Below are positions 8,536-49,155 of a stretch of DNA of 64,000 bases, piece after piece (position 1 is the stretch's first letter; each line of letters opens with the position of its first letter). The notes under the pieces were generated by a model. It had not been told where the DNA came from. It ran no database searches and worked only from the letters and a program-made list of their open reading frames with translations. A program made the translations under genes and the position numbers. Source of the stretch: Gemmatimonadota bacterium (GTDB lineage: Bacteria > Gemmatimonadota > Gemmatimonadetes > Gemmatimonadales > GWC2-71-9); assembly GCA_003222035.1 (NCBI GenBank), contig QHUS01000048.1:1-64000 (forward strand). Direction: 5' to 3'.

Positions 8536-9591
8536 ATGTCCACGGCGCCCATGACTGCCATCCGGCTGACGCGCTACTCACACGGCGCGGGCTGAGCCTG
8601 CAAACTCGGGGCTCCCGAGTTGGCGCAGGTCTTGCGCCACGTGCCGGTCGCGACGGATCCCCGGATCCTGGTCGACGCTTCGAGCCGCGACGATGCCGCG
8701 GTGTTCCGCCTGACACCGGATCGCGCGATCGTGGCGTCGGTGGATTTCTTCACGCCCATCGTGGACGACGCGTACAACTTCGGGCGCATCGCCGCGACCA
8801 ACGCGTTTTCGGACATCTACGCCATGGGCGCGACGCCCCTGTTCGCGCTCAACCTCGTCGGGTGGCCCCGCGAGGGGCTCCCGTTCGATCTGCTGGGCGA
8901 GGTGCTGCGCGGGGGGGCCGACACGACGCGAGCAGCGGGCGCGTTCCTCCTGGGCGGGCACTCCGTGGACGATCCCGAGCCCAAGTACGGGATGGCGGTG
9001 ATCGGCGAGGTGCACCCGGATCGCATCGTGACCAACGCGGGCGCGCGCGCCGGCGATGCGCTGGTGCTGACGAAGCCGATCGGCACGGGGGCGCTGACGA
9101 CGGCGTTGAAGCGCGATCTCCTGAGCGAGGCCGACCTCGCGCCCGCGGTCGCCGCGATGACAACCCTCAACGCCGGCGCTGCCCGCGCCATGTCGGAGGT
9201 CGGGGTGCACGCCGCGACGGACGTCACGGGCTTTGGCCTGCTCGGCCACCTGCGTACGCTGCTCGAGGCGAGCGCCGCCGCGGCGGAGCTGCGCGCGGCC
9301 GCCGTGCCGCTCCTCGGGGGCGCACGCGACGCCGTGGAGCGCGGAGCCATACCGGGAGGCACCCAGCGCAACGCCGACAATGTGGCCGACACGGTCACCT
9401 TCGCCCCCGGCGTGAACGCGACGACGCGGGTTTTGCTCGCGGATGCGCAGACGTCCGGCGGGCTCCTGATCGCCGTCGCGCCGGAGCGGGCGGACGCGCT
9501 CATGGCCGCCCTGGGGCGCGAGGCCACCCCCGCGGCGGCGCTCATCGGCCGCGTGGTCGCGGGCACGCCCGGGCGGATCACGGTCACATGA
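8536..9591 (+). CDS. selD: Selenide, water dikinase, itself a selenoprotein (in-frame TGA)
   Basis: Makes monoselenophosphate from selenide and ATP, the selenium donor for Sec-tRNA and 2-selenouridine synthesis. Translating from the ATG gives MSTAPMTAIRLTRYSHGAG, then TGA, then ACKLGAPELAQVL: exactly the SelD active-site loop in which the UGA stands at the catalytic Cys/Sec position (residue 20 here). Downstream the family motifs are present: DDAAVF, ASVDFFTPIVDD, FSDIYAMGATP, LLGGHSVDDPEPKYG, GTGALTTALK, DVTGFGLLGHL and DAQTSGGLLIA. Automatic gene callers would begin at the ATG after the UGA and lose the nucleophile. A hairpin right after the UGA fits a bacterial SECIS. A second in-frame ATG five codons in (8551) is an alternative start. 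Confidence 0.95.
8593..8629 (+). promoter_or_regulatory. Sec codon (UGA) and SECIS-like hairpin in selD
   Basis: UGA at 8593-8595 is followed by a stem-loop: outer pairs CCTGC (8597-8601) with GCAGG (8625-8629), inner pairs AACTCGGG (8603-8610) with CCCGAGTT (8614-8621), apical loop GCT. A short apical loop beginning with G roughly 15 nt after the UGA is close to the known bacterial SECIS arrangement, where SelB binds to deliver Sec-tRNA. The stem is coding sequence as well. Confidence 0.8.
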
Positions 9592-40614: not shown

Positions 40615-41468
40615 GCCGCCACGACCTGAGTATCGGTCCACGACTTGAGCGCGGTCGCCGTGAGTATGACAATGCTTCCGAGCAGAGCCAGCGGGCCCGG
40701 GGTCTCGCCGTGCGCGAGCCAGGCCCATACGGGGCTCAGCACCGGCTCGACCAGGAGATATAACGACGCCTCGAGGGCCGGCACGCGCGTGATGGCGCGG
40801 GACAGGAACACGTAGGCCAACCCGAGCTGAAACACGCCCAGATAAATCACGATCAGCCAGTCGACGGACCGGCCCGCCGCGAAGGGAAGCGCGCCCGGCA
40901 GGCACACGAGAAACACCATCAGGTTACCGCACGCCGCCGCGGCCGCGATCGGCCCGTGGTCTGCGCCTCCGTCGCGGGCCAGCCACCGGTAGCCCGTCAC
41001 CGTGAATGCCCAGGCGACCGCGCTGCCGGCCGCGAGCACGTTGCCGAGAAAGGGATCGGGTGCGGTGACGAAGTGTCGCTGTCCCCCGACGAACAAGAGC
41101 GCCAGGCCGACGGCCAGCACGGCCATGAACCGCAAGTCCGCGGCGCGCACGCGCTCGTGCAGGAGCCACGGCGCCAGGGCGACCACGAACAGGGGGTTGG
41201 TCGCCTGGAGGAAGACGGTGTTGGCCGCGGTGGTCAATTTGTTCGCGAACACGAACAGGAGGCCCGCCGCGGCGTACGCCACGCCCACGAGCGGGACACG
41301 CCAGCTCCAGCGGGCCCTGGCTTCGGGGATCAGAGCGAGGATCGCGAGCATCGCGACGAGGGCTCGGACCGCCGCGATCTGCCACGCGCTGAACGCGGAC
41401 CATTTGATGGCCGCGCCGGCCGTCGAGAAACACGCGGCGGCGAGTACCAGCTGCAGGCGAGCCTTCAC
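40611..41468 (-). CDS. EamA/DMT-family permease
   Basis: A 285-residue drug/metabolite transporter with ten predicted helices in two EamA halves. First half AAACFSTAGAAIKWSAFSAWQIAAVRALVA and FANKLTTAANTVFLQATNPLF; second half SAVAWAFTVTGYRWLA, and LEASLYLLVEPVLSPVWAWLAHGE with the conserved Glu/Pro turn. GTG start in an overlap with the solute-binding protein stop. DMT proteins usually export amino acids, nucleosides or related metabolites. Within the EgtD operon it may export an imported or modified amino acid. Confidence 0.9.
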   Translation of the reverse strand: MKARLQLVLAAACFSTAGAAIKWSAFSAWQIAAVRALVAMLAILALIPEARARWSWRVPLVGVAYAAAGLLFVFANKLTTAANTVFLQATNPLFVVALAPWLLHERVRAADLRFMAVLAVGLALLFVGGQRHFVTAPDPFLGNVLAAGSAVAWAFTVTGYRWLARDGGADHGPIAAAAACGNLMVFLVCLPGALPFAAGRSVDWLIVIYLGVFQLGLAYVFLSRAITRVPALEASLYLLVEPVLSPVWAWLAHGETPGPLALLGSIVILTATALKSWTDTQVVAA

Positions 41469-42334
41469 GGGCGCGGCGCCTGGAGCCAGTCCCGCGCGAT
41501 CCCGGCGATGTCCTTGTGCTCGACGTCCGCCAGGGCGTTGAGCCGACGCATCTCGGCGTCCGTGATCCGCCCGGCGAGCAGCGCGAGCGCCGTGCCGACC
41601 TCGGGGTGCGCGTCGAGCACCGCCTGCCGTATCACGGGCGCGGCCTCGTACGGCGGGAAGTAGTGCCGGTCGTCCTCGAGAACAACCAGGTCGAGCGCCT
41701 CGATCTGACCGTCCGTCGAGTTGCCGGCGATCACGTCCACCTTCCCTTCCGCCAGCGCGCGGTACGTCAAACCCAAGTCCATCGCAGTGGGTGGCGCGCT
41801 GAACCGCAGTCCGTACGCGTCCGCCAGGCCGCGGAAGCCGTCGGCCCGCTCCAGAAACTCGTATCCGAATCCCGCCTTCCAGCGGGACGCCACACGCGCC
41901 AGATCGGCGATGCGCGTAAGGCCGTACCGGGTTGCGTCGCGGCGTCGCACCGTGATGGCAAACGTGTTGTTGAAGCCGAACGGCTTGCCCCACGTGAGCC
42001 CGAAGCGCCGGGCATATTCGGCGGTGACCGCGCGCCGCACGCTGTCCGCGTCGTGCGCCGGCGGAAACTTGAGGACCGCCGTGTACGCAGTCCCCGTGTA
42101 CTCGACGTACAGGTCGATCTGACCGGACGTGATCGCGTGATGACACACGAACGTTCCGCCCAGATGGAACCGCCGCTCGACCGGCAGCCCGGTGCGCCGC
42201 TCGATCTGCTGTGCCACGATCTCCCCGAGCAGGTCGGACTCGCTGAAGTTCTTCGAGCCCACAACGATCCGGTCGGCGCGGCCGCACCCCGCGAGCAGCG
42301 TAGCGACGAAGACGATTGACTGTCCGACCGTCAT
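41465..42334 (-). CDS. OpuC/EgtU-type substrate-binding lipoprotein
   Basis: A 289-residue substrate-binding lipoprotein of the glycine betaine/choline class (OpuAC-like). Lipobox FVATLLAGC; binding-domain motifs VVGSKNFSESDLLGEIVAQQIE, LGGTFVCHHAITSGQIDLYVEYTGTAY, VIAGNSTDGQIEALDLVVLEDD, YFPPYEAAPVIR. The same family includes choline/betaine binders and the ergothioneine-specific EgtU. Aromatic-box residues cannot be assigned by eye. It is the fourth gene of the operon and directly precedes the two permease genes, so a complete ABC importer is encoded here. Confidence 0.88.
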   Translation of the reverse strand: MTVGQSIVFVATLLAGCGRADRIVVGSKNFSESDLLGEIVAQQIERRTGLPVERRFHLGGTFVCHHAITSGQIDLYVEYTGTAYTAVLKFPPAHDADSVRRAVTAEYARRFGLTWGKPFGFNNTFAITVRRRDATRYGLTRIADLARVASRWKAGFGYEFLERADGFRGLADAYGLRFSAPPTAMDLGLTYRALAEGKVDVIAGNSTDGQIEALDLVVLEDDRHYFPPYEAAPVIRQAVLDAHPEVGTALALLAGRITDAEMRRLNALADVEHKDIAGIARDWLQAPRP

Positions 42335-42969
42335 TTTCCCCGCCACGCGAGCCTCCGCTCCGCCAACCCCAGCAACCCGTCCGCCGCGAGCGCCATCAGG
42401 GCCGCGGGGAGCGCTCCGGCGAGGATCAGCGTGTCGTCCACAACGGCCACCCCGCGAAAGATGTAGACGCCGAGACCGCCGGCCCCGATCGCGGCCGCGA
42501 TCGTCGCGGTGCCGACGCTGACAACGGTGGCCACCCGCACGCCCGCCAAGATCACGCCGAAGCCGAGCGGCAGCTCGACCTGGGTGAGCAGCTGCCAGTC
42601 GGTCATGCCCATCCCACGCCCCGCCTCGCGCACGGCGGGGTCGACACCCGCGATCCCCGTGTACGTGTTGCGCACGATGGGCAGGAGGGCGTACAGCACG
42701 AGCGCGACGATGGCCGTCGATGCCCCGATCCCGCCGATGAAGGGAAGCGGGATGAGGAAACCGAACAGCGCGAGACTCGGCACGGTCTGGAACACGTTCG
42801 CGAGCCCGAGCACGGGCCGCTGCCATGCAGGCCGCCGCGTGAGCACGATGCCGAGGGGAATGCCGAGCGCGAACGCCAGGAGCGTCGAGACGGCGACCAG
42901 ATACAGGTGCTGGGCCACGAGTCCCAAGACTTCCTGGGCGTTGCGGGCGTAGAAGGCCAAGAGACTCAT
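42331..42969 (-). CDS. OpuC/EgtU-type ABC permease
   Basis: A 212-residue permease with about six helices. LLAFALGIPLGIVLTRRPAWQRPVLGLANVFQTVPSLALF and the EAA loop DPAVREAGRGMGMTDWQLLTQVELPLGFGVILAGVRVATV identify it as a proline/glycine-betaine/choline-type inner membrane subunit. In many relatives the permease is fused to the substrate-binding domain; here the binding protein is separate. The start was put at the ATG giving the normal length. The 28-nt gap between the ATPase gene and this one is the longest inside the operon. Confidence 0.9.
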   Translation of the reverse strand: MSLLAFYARNAQEVLGLVAQHLYLVAVSTLLAFALGIPLGIVLTRRPAWQRPVLGLANVFQTVPSLALFGFLIPLPFIGGIGASTAIVALVLYALLPIVRNTYTGIAGVDPAVREAGRGMGMTDWQLLTQVELPLGFGVILAGVRVATVVSVGTATIAAAIGAGGLGVYIFRGVAVVDDTLILAGALPAALMALAADGLLGLAERRLAWRGK

Positions 42970-42997: not shown

Positions 42998-43762
42998 TCA
43001 TGCCGCCGCCATGAACGCCCTGCACTCCGGGTGGTCCGAGCGCCGGAACTCCTCCGGCGTCCCGAGGAACGCGAGTCGCCCCTCGTGCATGAGCCCGATG
43101 CGCGTCCCCAGACGCAGGCCCTCGCGCACATCGTGCGTCACGAAGACCATACCCTTGCCGAGTCGACCCTCGAGCGCCTGGAACTCGCGCTGCAGCTCGA
43201 CGCGCGTGATCGGATCGAGCGCCCCGAATGGCTCGTCGAGCAGCAACAGCGGTGGATCAGCGGCGAGCGCGCGCGCGACTCCCACGCGTTGGCGTTGGCC
43301 TCCCGAGAGCTCGTGCGGGTACCGCGCCGCAAACCGCTCCGGGTCGAGACCCACGAGCGTCAGCAACTCGCGCACTCGCGCGGCGATGCGCGGCGGCGGC
43401 CACCCATCGAGCCGCGGAACGAGTCCCACGTTCCGCTCCACCGTGAAGTGCGGGAACAGCCCCACCTCCTGGATCACGTAGCCGATCCGGCGCCGCAGCT
43501 TCGTCGCCGGCACGTCAGCCGCCCGTTCCCCCGCGACGCGCACGTCGCCGGCGGTGGGCTCGAGCAACCGGTTGATCAACTTCAGTGTGGTGGTCTTGCC
43601 CGACCCGCTGCGCCCCAGCAGCACGAGCGTTTCGCCGGCGCCGACCGTGAACGACACGTCCTGCACGAGGGCGCGCCCGCCTTCCCGCCCCCGTCCCCCG
43701 TCCCTCGTCCCCCGTCCCGGCAGCTCGTAACTGAGCCCCCGTACCTCCAGGGCGGCCGTCAC
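42998..43762 (-). CDS. OpuC/EgtU-type ABC ATPase
   Basis: A 254-residue ATPase energising the importer. Walker A LLGRSGSGKTTTLKLIN, Q-loop VIQEVGLFP, signature LSGGQRQRVGVARALA, Walker B PLLLLDEPFGALDP, H-loop FVTHDVREGL. The lid segment LVPRLDGWPPPRI is a usual ABC glycine-betaine-type region; no CBS domains at the C-terminus, unlike ProV. A 15-residue insertion GRGTRDGGRGREGG after LSYELP near residue 16 is encoded by five GGGACGG-like heptamers (35 bp) and is absent from family consensus. It starts in a 4-nt overlap with the EgtD-like stop. Confidence 0.92.
   Translation of the reverse strand: MTAALEVRGLSYELPGRGTRDGGRGREGGRALVQDVSFTVGAGETLVLLGRSGSGKTTTLKLINRLLEPTAGDVRVAGERAADVPATKLRRRIGYVIQEVGLFPHFTVERNVGLVPRLDGWPPPRIAARVRELLTLVGLDPERFAARYPHELSGGQRQRVGVARALAADPPLLLLDEPFGALDPITRVELQREFQALEGRLGKGMVFVTHDVREGLRLGTRIGLMHEGRLAFLGTPEEFRRSDHPECRAFMAAA
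43684..43718. repeat. Heptamer repeat (CCGTCCC family) inside the ABC ATPase gene
   Basis: Five 7-bp units (CCCGCCC, CCGTCCC, CCGTCCC, TCGTCCC, CCGTCCC), the reverse complement family of the array at 12804-12838. The array is translated as a Gly/Arg/Asp linker close to the N-terminus of the ATPase, between two strands where a loop is tolerated. Confidence 0.85.
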
Positions 43763-44697
43763 GTCCGACCGGCCAGAACCATGAGAAACCGCTCGTCATC
43801 GCTCACGCCTTGCCACCGCGCGGCGAGACCTGCATCGGAGAGAATCCGGAGGAACGTATCGGCGGCGTACTTGTACGAGTGGTTCATGGCGACCCGCTCC
43901 CCCCGCTCGACGCGCATGGCTTCGCCGCCCATGGATGCCTCGACGTCGCGGGCGGCGCGGAAATGCTTGGGGATCAGGTGGAGGCCCGGCAGGCGGGGGT
44001 CGTCCGCCGCGCCGAAGACGAGCTCGCCATCCGTATCCCGAATGCCGACGGCGTTGAGCGGCGCCCACGCGAAACGACGGTTCAGCGGATTGTCATAGCC
44101 CGCGACCGTGGTGTCGCCGGCGTAGATCTCCCCGTCGACGAGCAGCACGTCATCCGGCCGGAGCAGTCGCGCGAGCTCCCGCGCCTCCGCAATGGGATCG
44201 AACGCGCCGAGGGTGTTGCCGATCAGCAGGATGAGGCGCCGTGGGGCTTCGGGCTCGGCAGCGAGCGCCGCCAGGTGGGCGGGCTTGGTGAAGTCAGCCT
44301 TGATCCCCTGCGCGGGGAAGCCCGCGCCGAGCGCGCCCGCGCACGCCATCTCGAGCAGCGCCTGGCTCGTGTCGACGGGGACGTAGGACACGCGCAGACC
44401 GCGCTCGCGCAACGCCTCGAGCAGGAGGAGGTCCTTGTCGCCCTGCCCCGCGCCGAGGCTCACCACCTCGAGAGGGGCGACCGGCAACAGCCGCGCGAGA
44501 TCGGCGCGGGCGCGTGCCATGAGAGAGCGTGAGCGCACGAAGTTGCGGTACGCGCCGTCCGAGCAAAGGGCCAGCCACGCGCGCACCGACAGCGGGAACC
44601 AGTAGAAGAATTTCTCGGGGAGACGGCGCTCCCCAAACGCGCGAACAAACTCGTCAGCGAGATCGTTCTCGGTGAGCAGCGCCTGAATCGAGATCAT
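43759..44697 (-). CDS. EgtD-like SAM-dependent methyltransferase
   Basis: A 312-residue protein of the Methyltransf_33/EgtD superfamily. SAM loop VVSLGAGQGDKDLLLLEAL, then VPVDTSQALLEMA, and the acidic loop GNTLGAFDPIAEARELARLL; C-terminal part MNHSYKYAADTFLRILSDAGL resembles the EgtD substrate end with Ser-x-Lys-Tyr. EgtD makes trimethylhistidine for ergothioneine; whether histidine is the substrate here is unknown, and no EgtB, EgtC or EgtE is in the window. It heads a six-gene operon with an OpuC/EgtU-type importer. The start is the ATG after a heptamer array; a further upstream ATG would translate the array. Confidence 0.78.
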   Translation of the reverse strand: MISIQALLTENDLADEFVRAFGERRLPEKFFYWFPLSVRAWLALCSDGAYRNFVRSRSLMARARADLARLLPVAPLEVVSLGAGQGDKDLLLLEALRERGLRVSYVPVDTSQALLEMACAGALGAGFPAQGIKADFTKPAHLAALAAEPEAPRRLILLIGNTLGAFDPIAEARELARLLRPDDVLLVDGEIYAGDTTVAGYDNPLNRRFAWAPLNAVGIRDTDGELVFGAADDPRLPGLHLIPKHFRAARDVEASMGGEAMRVERGERVAMNHSYKYAADTFLRILSDAGLAARWQGVSDDERFLMVLAGRT

Positions 44698-44699
44698 GC

Positions 44700-44727
44700 A
44701 GGGTTGAGAGTTACTGGTTGACGGGTT
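44700..44727. repeat. Heptamer repeat (GGTTGAC family) before the EgtD-like gene
   Basis: Four 7-bp units (AGGGTTG, AGAGTTA, CTGGTTG, ACGGGTT) that begin 2 nt upstream of the EgtD-like ATG and extend into the divergent promoter region; the -35 box proposed for the peptide gene overlaps the last two units. Confidence 0.6.
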
Positions 44728-44746
44728 CGACGGCAACCCGTAGCAT
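44718..44746 (+). promoter_or_regulatory. Candidate sigma-70-type promoter of the peptide cluster
   Basis: TTGACG and TAGCAT separated by exactly 17 nt, about 45 nt upstream of the peptide ATG. The spacer contains GGGTT and AACCC arms that can pair. The -35 lies inside a heptamer array, so the array may have created the promoter. Confidence 0.55.
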
Positions 44747-44791
44747 TCTCCGAACGGCCGTCCTTACTGATTCCTAGTCGAAGGAGGATGT

Positions 44792-44884
44792 ATGCAGATC
44801 GTCGAGACGCAGGAACTCGTCCCCAGCTGTCATCGTCCCGAAATCGTCGAGACGGCGGAGCTGGTACCTACCTGCCACTCCTAA
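44792..44884 (+). CDS. Candidate RiPP precursor peptide with duplicated IVETxELVPxCH core
   Basis: A 30-residue peptide, preceded by AAGGAGG. After Met-Gln it consists of two near-identical copies of IVETxELVPxCH joined by Arg-Pro-Glu, ending CHS. Each copy carries a single Cys followed by His. The second copy differs by Gln to Ala and Ser to Thr, with synonymous changes in several codons, so the repeat is kept at protein level. It is too short for usual gene calling and is overlapped by an out-of-frame ATG four bases earlier that runs on into the next gene. It precedes modification-enzyme genes of the MNIO type, which act on Cys-containing peptides. I see no distinct leader, so the enzyme recognition element may lie in the repeats. 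Confidence 0.78.
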   Translation: MQIVETQELVPSCHRPEIVETAELVPTCHS

Positions 44885-44895
44885 CGGAGCGGTCG

Positions 44896-46020
44896 ATGCG
44901 CCCGGGGGCCCGGATTGACGTCGGGCCCCCTTCGCGTTTTCTGGCGCCCGGACCCCGCCTCGGCTTCGGGGCGTGGGCGATCGGGGGAACCGACTGGGGT
45001 AGAGCCGGTGACGACGCCGATCGCCTCGCGACCGTCTGCTATGCGCTCGAGCGCGGCATCACCTTCTTCGACACGGCGCCCGCCTATGGGGACGGCGCTT
45101 CCGAGACCCTGCTCGGCCGGGCACTGCGCTCGGACCGCGCACGCGTCACCATCGCGACCAAGGTAGGCCCGCGTGACGACCCGAGGCGGTCCCTCGAGGC
45201 GTCGCTGCGGCGCCTGGCGACCGAGTACGTCGACCTGCTCCAGTTACACGAGACGCTGAGCGACTGGGAGCGGCAGCTCGAGCAGCTCGTCACACTGCAG
45301 CATGAAGGAAAGGCGCGGGCGGTCGGCCTGTGCAACGCGACGCATCGCCAGCTCGCGCGGGCGCTCGAGATCGCACCCCTCGCCGCGTACCAGGGTCCCT
45401 ACAACGTGATCGATCGCGACGTGGAGCAGCGAGAGTTGCCGCTGTGCCGGGACCGGGGGCTCGCGTTTCTCGCCTATCGGCCCCTTGCCTCGGGGTTGCT
45501 CACCGGCAAGTACGACGCGCCGCCGGCCTTCCCGGAGAACGACCATCGGCGCAAGCTCTATTGGTTCAAAGGAAGAGAGTTCGAGCGCCGACGGGCCGTG
45601 GTGGCCGGGCTGCGCCCGCTGGCACAGGATCTCGACCTGCCGCTCGCCGCACTCGCGCTCGCGTGGCTGCTGGCGCAGCCCGGCGTTTCCATCGTGCTGG
45701 CGGGTGCCCGCGGCAAGGCGCAGGTTGATGACAATCTCGCTGGCACCCGACCCCTGGCACCTGAAACCGTGTCGCGCATCGACGCCCTCGTCACCGCGAC
45801 ATTCCGGCTCCCACGTGCCACGGAGACGGTCCGGCAGCGGGCCGCGGCCTGGGGGGAGCGCGAGCGGTTCGTGGTCGAGCGGCTGGATGGACGGGCGAGC
45901 GCCGAGGCGGTGGCGGCCGCCTGGACCGACCGTGGCGGGGTGCCAATGGTTGCCGCGCAGGTCAAGGTGTTTTGTGACCAACTCGCCGAGCAGGGGTTAG
46001 TAGTAACAGACACCGCGTAA
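44896..46020 (+). CDS. Aldo-keto reductase fused to a PqqD-like (RRE) domain
   Basis: A 374-residue protein. Residues 15-300 are an aldo-keto reductase barrel: FFDTAPAYGDGASETLLGRAL with the catalytic Asp and Tyr, IATKVGPRDD with the Lys, LLQLHETLSDW with the His, and a C-terminal NADPH segment (SIVLAGARGKAQVDDNL). Residues about 319-374 (FVVERLDGRASAEAVAAAW, VFCDQLAEQGLVV) resemble PqqD-type RiPP recognition elements, a short winged-helix that binds precursor peptides. The insertion GTRPLAPETV is encoded by four TGGCACC-type heptamers. The ATG lies 11 nt after the peptide stop behind an ACGGAGCGG. It may reduce the modified peptide. Confidence 0.85.
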   Translation: MRPGARIDVGPPSRFLAPGPRLGFGAWAIGGTDWGRAGDDADRLATVCYALERGITFFDTAPAYGDGASETLLGRALRSDRARVTIATKVGPRDDPRRSLEASLRRLATEYVDLLQLHETLSDWERQLEQLVTLQHEGKARAVGLCNATHRQLARALEIAPLAAYQGPYNVIDRDVEQRELPLCRDRGLAFLAYRPLASGLLTGKYDAPPAFPENDHRRKLYWFKGREFERRRAVVAGLRPLAQDLDLPLAALALAWLLAQPGVSIVLAGARGKAQVDDNLAGTRPLAPETVSRIDALVTATFRLPRATETVRQRAAAWGERERFVVERLDGRASAEAVAAAWTDRGGVPMVAAQVKVFCDQLAEQGLVVTDTA

Positions 46021-46030
46021 CGGACGACGG

Positions 46031-46819
46031 ATGACGCAGGTCACGATCGGGGCGTTCTACAACCCCCACCTGGGCAAGGAATTGGCGCAGGCGGATGGCA
46101 TCGACCATCTCGCAATGGCCGACCCGCCGGCGACTGCCGATCCGTGGTGGCCAGCCATCCGCGAGCGTTACACGCTGCTGCTGCACGACTATTTGGGGCA
46201 GCTCTCCGAGCCGCTCGACGAGCGCTCGATACAGCGCGCTCGCGGGCTGGCGGAGCTGTACCGCACGCCCTGGGTGGCCGAGCACTTCCAGTGCCTGCAC
46301 ACCGAGGACGGTCGCTACAACCTCAACTACGTCTTCCCGCCGCTCTATACCGAGGAGTTTCTCGACCGCTTTGTCCGCAACGCGAACGCGCTCAAGGGCC
46401 GCCTCGACCAGCCGCTCGTTATGGAGAACATCCCGGGCTTCTTCGACGTCAAGGCAAGCCAGATGCTCGAGCCGGTGTGGCTGCGTCGGTTCTTCGAAGC
46501 GACGGGCGTCGGCTTCCTACTCGACCTGCCGCACGTCTGGCTGGAGGCGCACTACCACGATATTTCGCCGCGGCGCTGGCTCGTAGAGTTCCCCCTCGAT
46601 CACGTGGTGGAGCTACACGTCGCGGGTGTCGAGCACGACCGGGATCTCGACGGTCCCTGGATCGCGCCCGCCGAGCCGTCGGATGAAATGCTCGACTTCG
46701 CCGCGTATGCGGTGACCCGGTGTCCGCGGGCGCGCGCGGTCACGTTCGACGCGTTCTCCCCCTCGTTGACCGCCGAGGTCCTCCTCCGAAGCGTCGAGCG
46801 GATTCGAGGAGCGCTGTGA
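46031..46819 (+). CDS. Divergent DUF692 (MNIO) family protein
   Basis: A 262-residue TIM-barrel protein resembling DUF692 multinuclear non-heme iron oxidative enzymes, which modify cysteine-containing peptides (methanobactin MbnB, TglH and others). Matching segments in order: LLLHDYLGQLSEPLDERSI (HG-like His52), VAEHFQCLH (Glu84, His85), FPPLYTEEFLDRFVRN, PLVMENIPGFF (Glu132, Asn133), GFLLDLPHVWLEAHYHD (in place of LLDVNNVYV), HVVELHVAGVEHD (His196) and a closing AVTFDAFSP. The LLDVNN asparagine is replaced by Pro and the IDTH aspartate-histidine pair by DGPW, so the iron site may hold fewer metals. It follows the reductase by 10 nt and its stop overlaps the next gene. Confidence 0.82.
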   Translation: MTQVTIGAFYNPHLGKELAQADGIDHLAMADPPATADPWWPAIRERYTLLLHDYLGQLSEPLDERSIQRARGLAELYRTPWVAEHFQCLHTEDGRYNLNYVFPPLYTEEFLDRFVRNANALKGRLDQPLVMENIPGFFDVKASQMLEPVWLRRFFEATGVGFLLDLPHVWLEAHYHDISPRRWLVEFPLDHVVELHVAGVEHDRDLDGPWIAPAEPSDEMLDFAAYAVTRCPRARAVTFDAFSPSLTAEVLLRSVERIRGAL

Positions 46820-48015
46820 AAGCGATCGCCTTGCTGGTACTACTGCTGCAGGTAGAGGTTGTAGTGCCCGCGGGCACGCGCATTCCGATCCGCTTCGTAC
46901 AACGCATCACGAGCGGAAGAGACACGGTCGGCAGCGAGGTGCTGGTGCAAACGGTGGGGGCGGTGGTGCAGGATTCCTGCACGATCATCCCGCCGTACCT
47001 GCGCGCGAAGGGGCGGATCGTTCTCTCAAAAGGCGGAGGGCGGTTCGGCCGCCATGGCCAGCTGGGGCTGGAATTCGACTCGCTGGAGATCCGTCGCGGG
47101 CGCTGGGTCCCCATCTCAGGTGTCCTCGACACGCTCGAGTACGCCCATCCGGGGACGCTCACGGATTCCGGGTTCGTGTCCAGCGGAAAGATGTCGGTCG
47201 GCGGCGTCGGCAAGAAGCTCGTGCCCGCGGGCGTTGCGGTGGCGGCGGACTTGGCTGCTGTCCCGGTGGCCGTGATCGGGGGCGTTTCGCTCGCGCGTCG
47301 TGGGCCCCCAATGCGCATTTTCGTAGGGGAGCTCGGCGGCATCCGGCTCACCGAACCGCTCGTCTGGGCGAGCACGGAGGCGTGCCAGCCCGTGGCTCCG
47401 CACGCGGAGACGGCGGTGTTACCGGACCTGCCAACCTTCATGCCCCGCTCGGAGAACCGTACCGGGACTGTGCTGGGCGACCCCTTCAACGTGCTGTTGC
47501 TCGGCACGGCCGGGGAGATCGACAGCGCGTTCCGGGCCGCTGGCTGGCTCCCTGCCGACAAGCGATCGGTGCTCACGGTGACGCGTGAGATCACCGCCGC
47601 GATCGCGAGCCGACCAGCCAACACGGCGCCCGTGAGCACGCAATACTTCGATGGGCGACCGCAGGAGCTGGCGTACGAGCTCCCCGGACCGAACGTCCGG
47701 ATTCGTCATCACATCCGGATCTGGCAGCTGGACAGCCTGTCCCACGTCTGGGTCGGCGCGGCGAACAAGGACGTTGGCGTGATCTTCAAGCCCTGGGAAC
47801 CCGAGGCCACTCACCGCATCGAGCCGCACGTCGATTGGGAGCGGGACCGGATCGTGCACGACCTCGAGGCCAGCGGCTGTGCCGACTTGCTGGACTACAA
47901 GAGCCTCCCCGGCGCCATGACCGAGGGACGCAATGTTTCCGGTCAGAAGCTCTTCTCGGACGGGCGAACCGCTGTGGTGCGCCTGCGATCGTGTAACGAC
48001 CCGGAAACCCCGTGA
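46816..48015 (+). CDS. Secreted protein with LssY-like C-terminal domain
   Basis: A 399-residue exported protein from a GTG in a GTGA overlap. The N-terminal 20 residues (KAIALLVLLLQVEVVVPAG) form a signal or membrane anchor. Residues 20-130 form a beta-rich domain (TSGRDTVGSEVLVQTVGAVVQ, EFDSLEIRRGRWVPISGVL) with a helical membrane-proximal hairpin around 150-175. Residues about 230-385 match LssY_C: NVLLLGTAGEIDSAFRAAGW, ELAYELPGPNVRIRHHIRIWQL, VWVGAANKDVGVIFKP and EPHVDWERDRIVHDLE. Its role in the peptide pathway is unknown; it could process or export the product. Confidence 0.75.
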   Translation: MKAIALLVLLLQVEVVVPAGTRIPIRFVQRITSGRDTVGSEVLVQTVGAVVQDSCTIIPPYLRAKGRIVLSKGGGRFGRHGQLGLEFDSLEIRRGRWVPISGVLDTLEYAHPGTLTDSGFVSSGKMSVGGVGKKLVPAGVAVAADLAAVPVAVIGGVSLARRGPPMRIFVGELGGIRLTEPLVWASTEACQPVAPHAETAVLPDLPTFMPRSENRTGTVLGDPFNVLLLGTAGEIDSAFRAAGWLPADKRSVLTVTREITAAIASRPANTAPVSTQYFDGRPQELAYELPGPNVRIRHHIRIWQLDSLSHVWVGAANKDVGVIFKPWEPEATHRIEPHVDWERDRIVHDLEASGCADLLDYKSLPGAMTEGRNVSGQKLFSDGRTAVVRLRSCNDPETP

Positions 48016-48791
48016 CCGGCGGCCGGACCGACCGGGCCTTGCAGGACGACGTGATCCGCGCCCTGTCCGACGCCCGGTACCGCGCGTCGGCTGAATGGCG
48101 CCGCCGTGCGCTCGCGGACCCCGACCGGGTGGAGCGGTACGCGCGCTTTCTGGCGCGACACTTCTACTACGAGCGTGCCGTCCACTTCTTCAAGTACTCG
48201 CGCGCGCTCGCGCGGGTGACCGGCCGTCGACCCGAAGCCGCTCTCACGAGCTCGGCGTTCGACGCTCTGCTCCCCACCCTCGTGCTCGGCAGCCGGGAGA
48301 CCGCTGCCGCGGTCGCACGAATCGTCGTTGCGTACCTCGGGGCCGGACCCGCGGTGGTGCCGTATCTGCCAGATCTGCTGCGCTACGAGGAAGCGATGAT
48401 GGTGGTGGAAGCGGGGTCCCGGGTGTGGCGGGACGGAGGGAATGGGGACGACGGAAGAGGGAGGGGCGTGGCTCCGCGGACAGTCGAGGGTACGGTGCTA
48501 TTGGAGCTGGCGTACGACCTTCCCGCGGTCCTGCCCAAACTGCTGCAGCCCTGGATGGACGTACCGCCGGCCCCCGAGCGGCCTATTAAGCTGCTCGTCG
48601 CACGATCGCCACACGGGCGGGTCGCCGTGGCCCGCAGCGACGAGAGCGTGGCGGCGGTGATCGAGCTTGCGGACGGCAAGCGGACGCTCCAGGACCTCGC
48701 CACCGATGCCCGACTGGACCTCCCCACACTCGAAGCGACGGTCAAGAACCTCGTCGAGTTGGGTGCCGTCCGGTTCTCGACCGGAAGTTGA
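48012..48791 (+). CDS. DUF692-partner-like protein with C-terminal winged helix
   Basis: A 259-residue protein from a GTG overlap. Residues 1-140 are helical (RYARFLARHFYYERAVHFFKY, VAYLGAGPAVVPYLPDLLRYEEAMMVVEAG), reminiscent of the DUF2063-like partners (such as MbnC/TglI type) that bind the precursor for MNIO enzymes. Residues 175-259 contain a winged-helix/PqqD-like domain (VAVARSDESVAAVIELADGKRTLQDLATDARLD, LPTLEATVKNLVELGAV). Between them WRDGGNGDDGRGRG is translated from a GGGACGG-type repeat at about 48428-48470. Together with the preceding DUF692 protein it probably forms the modifying complex. The identification rests on pattern and context, not on a clear signature. Confidence 0.68.
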   Translation: MTGGRTDRALQDDVIRALSDARYRASAEWRRRALADPDRVERYARFLARHFYYERAVHFFKYSRALARVTGRRPEAALTSSAFDALLPTLVLGSRETAAAVARIVVAYLGAGPAVVPYLPDLLRYEEAMMVVEAGSRVWRDGGNGDDGRGRGVAPRTVEGTVLLELAYDLPAVLPKLLQPWMDVPPAPERPIKLLVARSPHGRVAVARSDESVAAVIELADGKRTLQDLATDARLDLPTLEATVKNLVELGAVRFSTGS

Positions 48792-48792
48792 C

Positions 48793-49155
48793 GTGGAGGT
48801 TCAGATCTTCGGAGTGAGAAAGAGCGCCGACACGCGCGCCGCGCTCCGCTTTTTTGCCGAGCGCCGGATCAGGACACATTTCGTGGATCTGAACGAGCGG
48901 GCGGCATCGGTCGGCGAGCTGCGGCGCTTCGCCACGAAGTTCGGCGCGCAGGCGCTGATCGACCTCGAGGGCAAGCGCTTCGCCGAGCTGGGCCTGAAAT
49001 CGGCGCAGCTCTCGGAGGAGCGCTGGCTCGAGCGCCTCAGCGTGGAGCCGCTGCTCCTCCGCATGCCCCTCGTGCGCCACCAGCAACAACTCACCGTGGG
49101 CCCGGCGGAAGAGAGCTGGCGCGCATGGGTCGCCGCCACGCGGACGCCCGCATAG
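48793..49155 (+). CDS. ArsC/Spx-like protein lacking the catalytic cysteine
   Basis: A 120-residue thioredoxin-fold protein of the ArsC/Spx family (VQIFGVRKSADTRAALRFFAERRI), beginning with a GTG one nucleotide after the preceding stop. The active-site Cys of arsenate reductases or the CxxC of Spx is replaced: the loop reads GVRKSADT instead of GIKNCDT. Later parts (SERWLERLSVEPLLLRMPLVRHQQQLTVG) match the family helix and cis-Pro strand. It therefore cannot reduce arsenate by the normal chemistry, and may be a protein-binding relative. It is placed at the end of the RiPP-like transcript. Confidence 0.82.
   Translation: MEVQIFGVRKSADTRAALRFFAERRIRTHFVDLNERAASVGELRRFATKFGAQALIDLEGKRFAELGLKSAQLSEERWLERLSVEPLLLRMPLVRHQQQLTVGPAEESWRAWVAATRTPA

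Follow-up and report, generated by a model that had tools for sequence, protein, structure and literature searches.

The window, by which we mean the whole 64,000-nucleotide stretch analysed (contig QHUS01000048.1 of a Gemmatimonadota soil bacterium, assembly GCA_003222035.1), carries a short ORF on its forward strand (44792-44884) that encodes a 30-aa peptide, MQIVETQELVPSCHRPEIVETAELVPTCHS, with an ATG start and a ribosome-binding site (AAGGAGG, 44781-44787). Downstream on the same strand lie an aldo/keto reductase (44896-46020, ATG at 44896; PF00248), an MNIO (DUF692) enzyme (46031-46819; PF05114, 93.1 bits vs. a cut-off of 25), an LssY_C-domain gene (46816-48015; Pfam) and a 259-aa RRE-containing MNIO partner resembling TglI and PME-type 2 proteins (48012-48791). 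Gene order is conserved in Gemmatimonadota (peptide, reductase, MNIO and TglI-like partner) and across four phyla; locus comparison confines the reductase itself to Gemmatimonadota, which excludes it as a core part, and the LssY_C gene to the window's own genus, which probably excludes that gene as well. Also restricted to this genus is an ArsC/Spx-like gene after the partner (48787-49155), apparently without the catalytic Cys motif. Divergent from the peptide, on the reverse strand, we found an EgtD-family SAM methyltransferase (43759-44697, its ORF extending to 44736; PF10017), followed by an OpuC-type ABC ATPase (42998-43762), a permease (42331-42966; BPD_transp_1) and a substrate-binding protein of the OpuC/quaternary-ammonium type (41465-42334; PF04069). 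Neither a dedicated protease nor an exporter turned up in the clusters.

The promoter of the peptide operon, near-invariant in Gemmatimonadota loci, consists of a -35 element TTGACG (44718-44723), a 17-bp spacer and a -10 element TAGCAT (44741-44746) on the forward strand. Between the two elements sits a perfect, operator-like 7-7-7 inverted repeat, ACGGGTT-N7-AACCCGT (44721-44741), which is conserved in Gemmatimonadota and has its sole match in the window here (0 mismatches; 0.17 expected by chance); such a conserved repeat within the promoter suggests a dedicated repressor. On the 3' side of the peptide, a forward-strand hairpin (GGGGGCCCG..CGGGCCCCC, 44904-44930; z -1.8) of attenuator- or terminator-like form overlaps the start of the reductase gene and is present in all Gemmatimonadota loci. 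A hairpin at this position is usual in RiPP operons, where it sets the stoichiometry between precursor and enzymes.

The peptide, which has no signal sequence and matches no precursor name in NCBIfam or Pfam, is built from two 15-residue copies, QIVETQELVPSCHR (44795-44836, forward strand) and EIVETAELVPTCHS (44840-44881, forward strand). At a lag of 15 it matches itself at 10 of 14 residues, a value reached by none of 20,000 composition shuffles (maximum 9), and the duplication reported in the earlier note is thereby borne out. That note had also held that the protein repeat was retained after the DNA of the copies diverged; this applies to ELVP and CH, whose six codons differ synonymously throughout, but not to IVET, which is encoded identically in both copies (ATC GTC GAG ACG). 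Conservation across loci is the stronger evidence for the repeat. The gene is present in one copy in the window's own genome, in 9/9 other sampled genomes of the genus and in G019, and wherever related Gemmatimonadota genera have the MNIO they have the peptide too, always with 30 aa and two copies. The 19 distinct Gemmatimonadota gene sequences all share this length and copy number (pN/pS 0.27), and across ten divergent members there is no variation at 19 of the 30 columns, among them the two P, two C and two H positions. A small gene-encoded precursor with a conserved core and adjoining modifying enzymes is one mark of a RiPP, and the locus bears it.

When the MNIO alignment was used to scan GTDB contigs, 33 loci emerged, in MAGs that carry the labels Gemmatimonadetes, Acidobacteria, Planctomycetota and Nitrospirae. 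The scan used 8-residue patterns (GIDHLAMA, LLHDYLGQ) and missed enzymes with LLHDYIGQ or LLHDFIGQ, so that the single-unit loci of selenocysteine (Sec) type described below are probably undercounted in other phyla. Two units are found in the window's Gemmatimonadota relatives and in the ‘Nitrospirae’ loci L088 and L089 (METKAINLEVVETEELQPTCHQLDIVDLEELVPTCHQ), three in the Acidobacteria loci L080-L086 and L092 (e.g. MKIVETSEISPTCHANFKLVETAEVSPTCHAEFKLVEAAEVAPTCH), four in L079, from one Gemmatimonadaceae MAG, and one in L087 (Planctomycetota) and in L169, L170 and L171 (Acidobacteriota). The unit consensus is (V/I)(V/L)(E/D)xx(E/N)(L/V)xP(T/S)-C/U-H, and P-x-C-H is kept in every unit of the Cys-type peptides, across phyla and copy numbers. 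Unit number thus varies from one to four while the MNIO, its partner and the methyltransferase stay constant, as they should if every unit serves as a core, and this supports the earlier proposal of two cores in the peptide. The same proposal supposed that no separate leader exists and that recognition may lie inside the copy; the Planctomycetota precursor, at 18 aa, is a single unit and nothing else (MPEIVLVDAVELVPT-U-HN), so recognition must lie within the unit. Single-copy homologues, which the earlier note had advised looking for, do exist, but they are conserved at these positions (NLVPT or ELVPT, then U or C, then H), so the case that the note named as refuting, one copy with unconserved sequence, does not arise. 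One unit would accordingly be a complete substrate.

The very small size of the ORF, the hairpins that separate it from the next gene and the terminator-like hairpins of L169 and L170 would also fit a regulatory leader peptide or attenuator of the downstream operon that is not itself modified. We consider this highly improbable given conservation at the amino-acid level, a P-x-C-H motif that is invariant across phyla and copy numbers, and neighbours that are RiPP enzymes of the MNIO/RRE type.

In all four single-unit loci an in-frame TGA stands exactly at the Cys position, in each case within ACC-TGA-CAC (PT-UGA-H). Read as Sec, the TGA yields MPEIVLVDAVELVPT-U-HN in L087 (6850-6910), where the standard code gives no CH peptide, ...ERENLVPT-U-H in L169 (1940-2600, reverse strand), ...EKANLVPT-U-H in L170 (4100-4660) and ...EQKNLVPT-U-H in L171 (3140-3700, reverse strand); the last three come from a phylum sample of Acidobacteriota. 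Each UGA is followed by a hairpin, GCCUCC-AGGU-GGAGGC in L087, with its loop starting 18 nt after the UGA, and CGGCU/AGCYG in the other three. The published bSECIS constraints (loop 16-37 nt after the UGA, 3-9 nt long, with G in its first two positions, and a stem of at least 4 bp; PMC13188914) are passed by 4/4 UGA loci, with stems of 6-9 bp. Shuffled sequences pass at 11-28% per locus and Cys-type loci at 8/29, and hairpins alone are therefore moderate evidence; the main evidence for Sec is that in four diverged loci UGA exactly replaces Cys, with the His codon next to it. Separate terminator-like hairpins occur further downstream of the precursor in L169 and L170.

Could the TGA nevertheless be a genuine stop, the peptides ending in ...LVPT and both the CAC and the hairpin following by chance? 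Another stop does occur within one or two codons of the UGA in 4/4 loci, and the shuffle rates per locus are as just given. We nonetheless judge a genuine stop very unlikely: TGA at the exact Cys position together with CAC recurs in 4/4 loci from two separate clades of the MNIO tree, the hairpin is present in all four with a joint probability of about 6e-4 (per-locus shuffle rates multiplied), the partner, methyltransferase and MNIO are intact, and elsewhere nothing but P-x-C-H is retained by all units. In addition, selB is above cut-off in G121, G893 and G910, three of the four genomes, and G121 has a tRNA-Sec (anticodon TCA). G1119, a 1.9-Mb MAG, gave no selB match, but it gave no EF-Tu match either, which makes this absence uninformative. 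The single-copy precursors thus appear to use Sec in place of Cys. In the MNIO tree, L087 is sister to the two-copy loci L088 and L089 (99/99) and L169-L171 form another clade; the outgroup attaches by a long branch, and the branching does not give the direction of change. Class-level searches of two Acidobacteriota classes returned no Sec loci beyond L169-L171, and among 343 Planctomycetota genomes this MNIO subfamily was seen in G121 only.

AlphaFold models of the MNIO (pLDDT 88) and of the partner (pLDDT 89) have their best PDB matches in TglH/MbnB (Foldseek, 8hi7_B, TM 0.80) and in TglI (8hci_A) and NGO1945 (3dee), respectively; the L169 MNIO scores 92.4 bits against PF05114. The partner matches no Pfam family, DUF2063 included, and combines a helical N-terminal domain with an RRE, as PME-type 2 proteins do. 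Aligned with the Fe1/Fe2 ligands of TglH (H71, H107, E151, D184, H216 and E258; PMC10880893), H52, H85, E132, D165 and H196 are invariant and the counterpart of E258 is probably D240, whereas the third-iron ligands of TglH and MbnB are changed in the alignment (N187 to H168, D229 to P209, H231 to I211). A di-iron centre or an altered third site is therefore possible, and the chemistry may differ from that of the studied MNIOs. Some MNIOs work with two irons, and the third site bears more on chemistry than on membership of the family.

In G044 (L090/L051), a locus that lacks the reductase, an in-frame junction links the MNIO with the start region of the reductase; this MNIO is itself frameshifted near codon 214, possibly through decay or assembly error. 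The MNIO of L092 (7001-7587) has an internal deletion (about residues 109-163) beside an intact three-unit peptide. Directly downstream of the partner, L083 has a Pfam-confirmed Fe/Mn superoxide dismutase gene (8863-9465), and clustered homologues of it occupy the same place in L084, L085 and L092, these being part of the Acidobacteriota loci.

The top NCBIfam models for the MNIO and the partner are ApyH (99 bits) and ApyI (25 bits) of the aminopyruvatide pathway, but both scores are far below the cut-offs (400 and 200), no P450 is present here, and assignments as ApyH, BufB or ApyI are excluded on score. The Apy enzymes act on a peptide with a C-terminal Asp. In fold, the closest enzymes are TglH and TglI of the pearlin/3-thiaglutamate pathway, which likewise pairs an MNIO with an RRE partner; here, as there, a peptide scaffold may give rise to a small Cys-derived molecule. 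TglA, however, gains its C-terminal Cys non-ribosomally, whereas here Cys or Sec is encoded, next to His and in one to four units; Asn73 of TglH corresponds to Tyr54, and the Fe3 ligands differ. The encoded Cys and the Tyr54 substitution place the family outside the pearlins. TglA carrying Sec inhibited TglHI in vitro (PMC9016710).

The methyltransferase adjoins the cluster, in four phyla, at every locus with enough sequence. It shares a one-strand operon with the other genes in L170 (methyltransferase-ABC-peptide-MNIO-partner) and comes after them in L171 (peptide-MNIO-partner-methyltransferase), and thus belongs to the system. Its scores are 82 bits against PF10017 (cut-off 23) and 69 bits against the EgtD model TIGR03438, far below the cut-off of 290.9. 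EgtD and EasF are members of a methyltransferase family whose substrates are free aromatic amino acids, modified at the alpha-amine. Of the substrate residues of EgtD (Tyr206 and Ser284, which bind the carboxylate, Asn166 and Glu282; PMC8593015), Tyr206 and Ser284 appear to be kept while Asn166 is replaced by Ala/Gly and Glu282 by Asn/Ser, the C-terminal part being aligned by motif only; a substrate among the free amino acids, though not plain His itself, is thus plausible. The ABC ATPase adjoins the cluster in L088, L169 and L170 as well, whereas the flanking sequence examined at L087, L171 and the three-copy loci of Acidobacteriota shows no transporter; together with the restriction of the reductase to Gemmatimonadota, this means that neither is core. 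At motif positions matching the ergothioneine determinants of EgtU (G244, F293, Y341 and Y419; PMC9732360), the binding protein has F12, Y61, F107 and N/D187, which excludes an EgtU ortholog and, by alignment, leaves its place in the class of quaternary-amine binders only. An invariant Cys (LGGTFxC, alignment position 46) lies near its ligand cleft in all seven clusters compared.

The sequences establish the repeat and its conservation, copy numbers of one to four, the replacement of Cys by UGA with SECIS-like hairpins, and a constant MNIO, RRE partner and EgtD-family methyltransferase. On this basis we think that the peptide is probably a RiPP precursor with several cores and no leader, in which each unit of ~15 residues joins a recognition strand to a Cys-His or Sec-His core. 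The RRE partner would hold the IVETxELVP strand and feed C/U-H into the MNIO, where the thiolate or selenolate would bind Fe1, as in MbnB and TglH, and Cys or Sec, possibly with its His, would be oxidatively rearranged once per unit. Less certainly, release of the modified residue or dipeptide might yield a small molecule that the EgtD-like enzyme then N-alpha-methylates; in Gemmatimonadota the aldo/keto reductase would perhaps tailor it further, and the OpuC-type ABC system may handle this product or an amine related to it. With tandem Cys units each round of translation would deliver several products, and the Sec gene would be kept to one unit by the requirement for a SECIS after its UGA.

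The main rival is that the peptide remains intact, as a metallophore or stress peptide like the bufferins and captophorins (MNIO-PME1 systems making 5-thiooxazole copper peptides, among them fontiphorin and oxazolin), with Cys converted to a 5-thiooxazole or its Se analogue and His completing a copper site. Cys-His is a good soft-metal ligand pair, the superoxide dismutase genes noted above would fit a stress function, and the products known from Cys-type MNIOs are thiooxazole peptides that bind copper, some of which contain short tandem repeats (EGKCG in FonA; PMC13097082); there a Cys-targeting MNIO modifies several sites per peptide, as it would here. Captophorin substrates with several sites, tandem repeats included, mean that multi-core precursors as such are not new (PMC13097082). 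Yet the signal peptide and DUF2063 partner typical of bufferins (PMC12452194) are both lacking, the motif is C-H and not EGKCG or Lys-Cys, a methyltransferase and a transporter are added, and no exporter was found in the clusters. With neither a DUF2063 match nor a Sec signal sequence, the family falls outside the bufferins and captophorins. An intact metallophore also leaves unexplained why an EgtD-like methyltransferase lies alongside in each of the four phyla and how the system works with one to four units, and we regard it as unlikely, if a serious competitor.

That a small molecule is released seems to us more likely than that the peptide stays intact. Our grounds are the variable number of units with otherwise constant machinery, the location of His in the last unit, at the C-terminus or close to it, the family of the methyltransferase and the quaternary-amine type of the transporter. 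Against release stand the lack of a protease in the cluster and a binding protein without the EgtU determinants. Ergothioneine and selenoneine biosynthesis (EgtD, with the EgtU importer) offers a parallel in its Cys/Sec and His source atoms, its EgtD-family N-alpha-methyltransferase and an OpuC-type transporter; here, by contrast, the source is encoded in a peptide, the methyltransferase is below the EgtD cut-off with altered residues, and the binding protein differs as described. At its boldest, the small-molecule reading becomes a ribosomal route to an S- or Se-substituted histidine betaine, in which the MNIO would move S/Se to His or fuse it with His before release and trimethylation by the EgtD-like enzyme. 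We offer this speculatively and consider it unlikely; if true, ergothioneine- and selenoneine-like compounds would have a second, peptide-templated origin in which the codon (UGU/UGC vs. UGA) picks the chalcogen.

Sec-containing RiPP precursors are known from the selenobacteriocins (TIGR04081, SGUG motif, radical SAM thio(seleno)oxazoles), cited in PMC13188914, which differ from this family in relying on radical SAM and not MNIO enzymes and in having two Sec in SGUG; we found no sequence match to them. None of the precursor groups described in the accessible part of the MNIO landscape paper (PMC12452194) matches C/U-H units, and in the open-licence literature searched we found no earlier description of this family or of a Sec-bearing MNIO substrate. 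This looks like the first MNIO substrate to contain Sec. The MNIO RiPP family to which it belongs is marked by a core motif of its own (C/U-H) and by core numbers that naturally run from one to four among homologous precursors, and it points to an undescribed sulfur or selenium natural product derived from a peptide. Because the Sec peptides end at an apparent stop codon, gene finders would miss them. The natural exchange of Sec for Cys points at the atom on which the enzyme works, and the existence of two separate UH clades, one of them beside two-unit CH loci, makes a link between chalcogen and copy number testable.

The window's own genome (G000) has selB (C130:36448-38295) and a tRNA-Sec (C40:44423-44512), and its precursor uses Cys.
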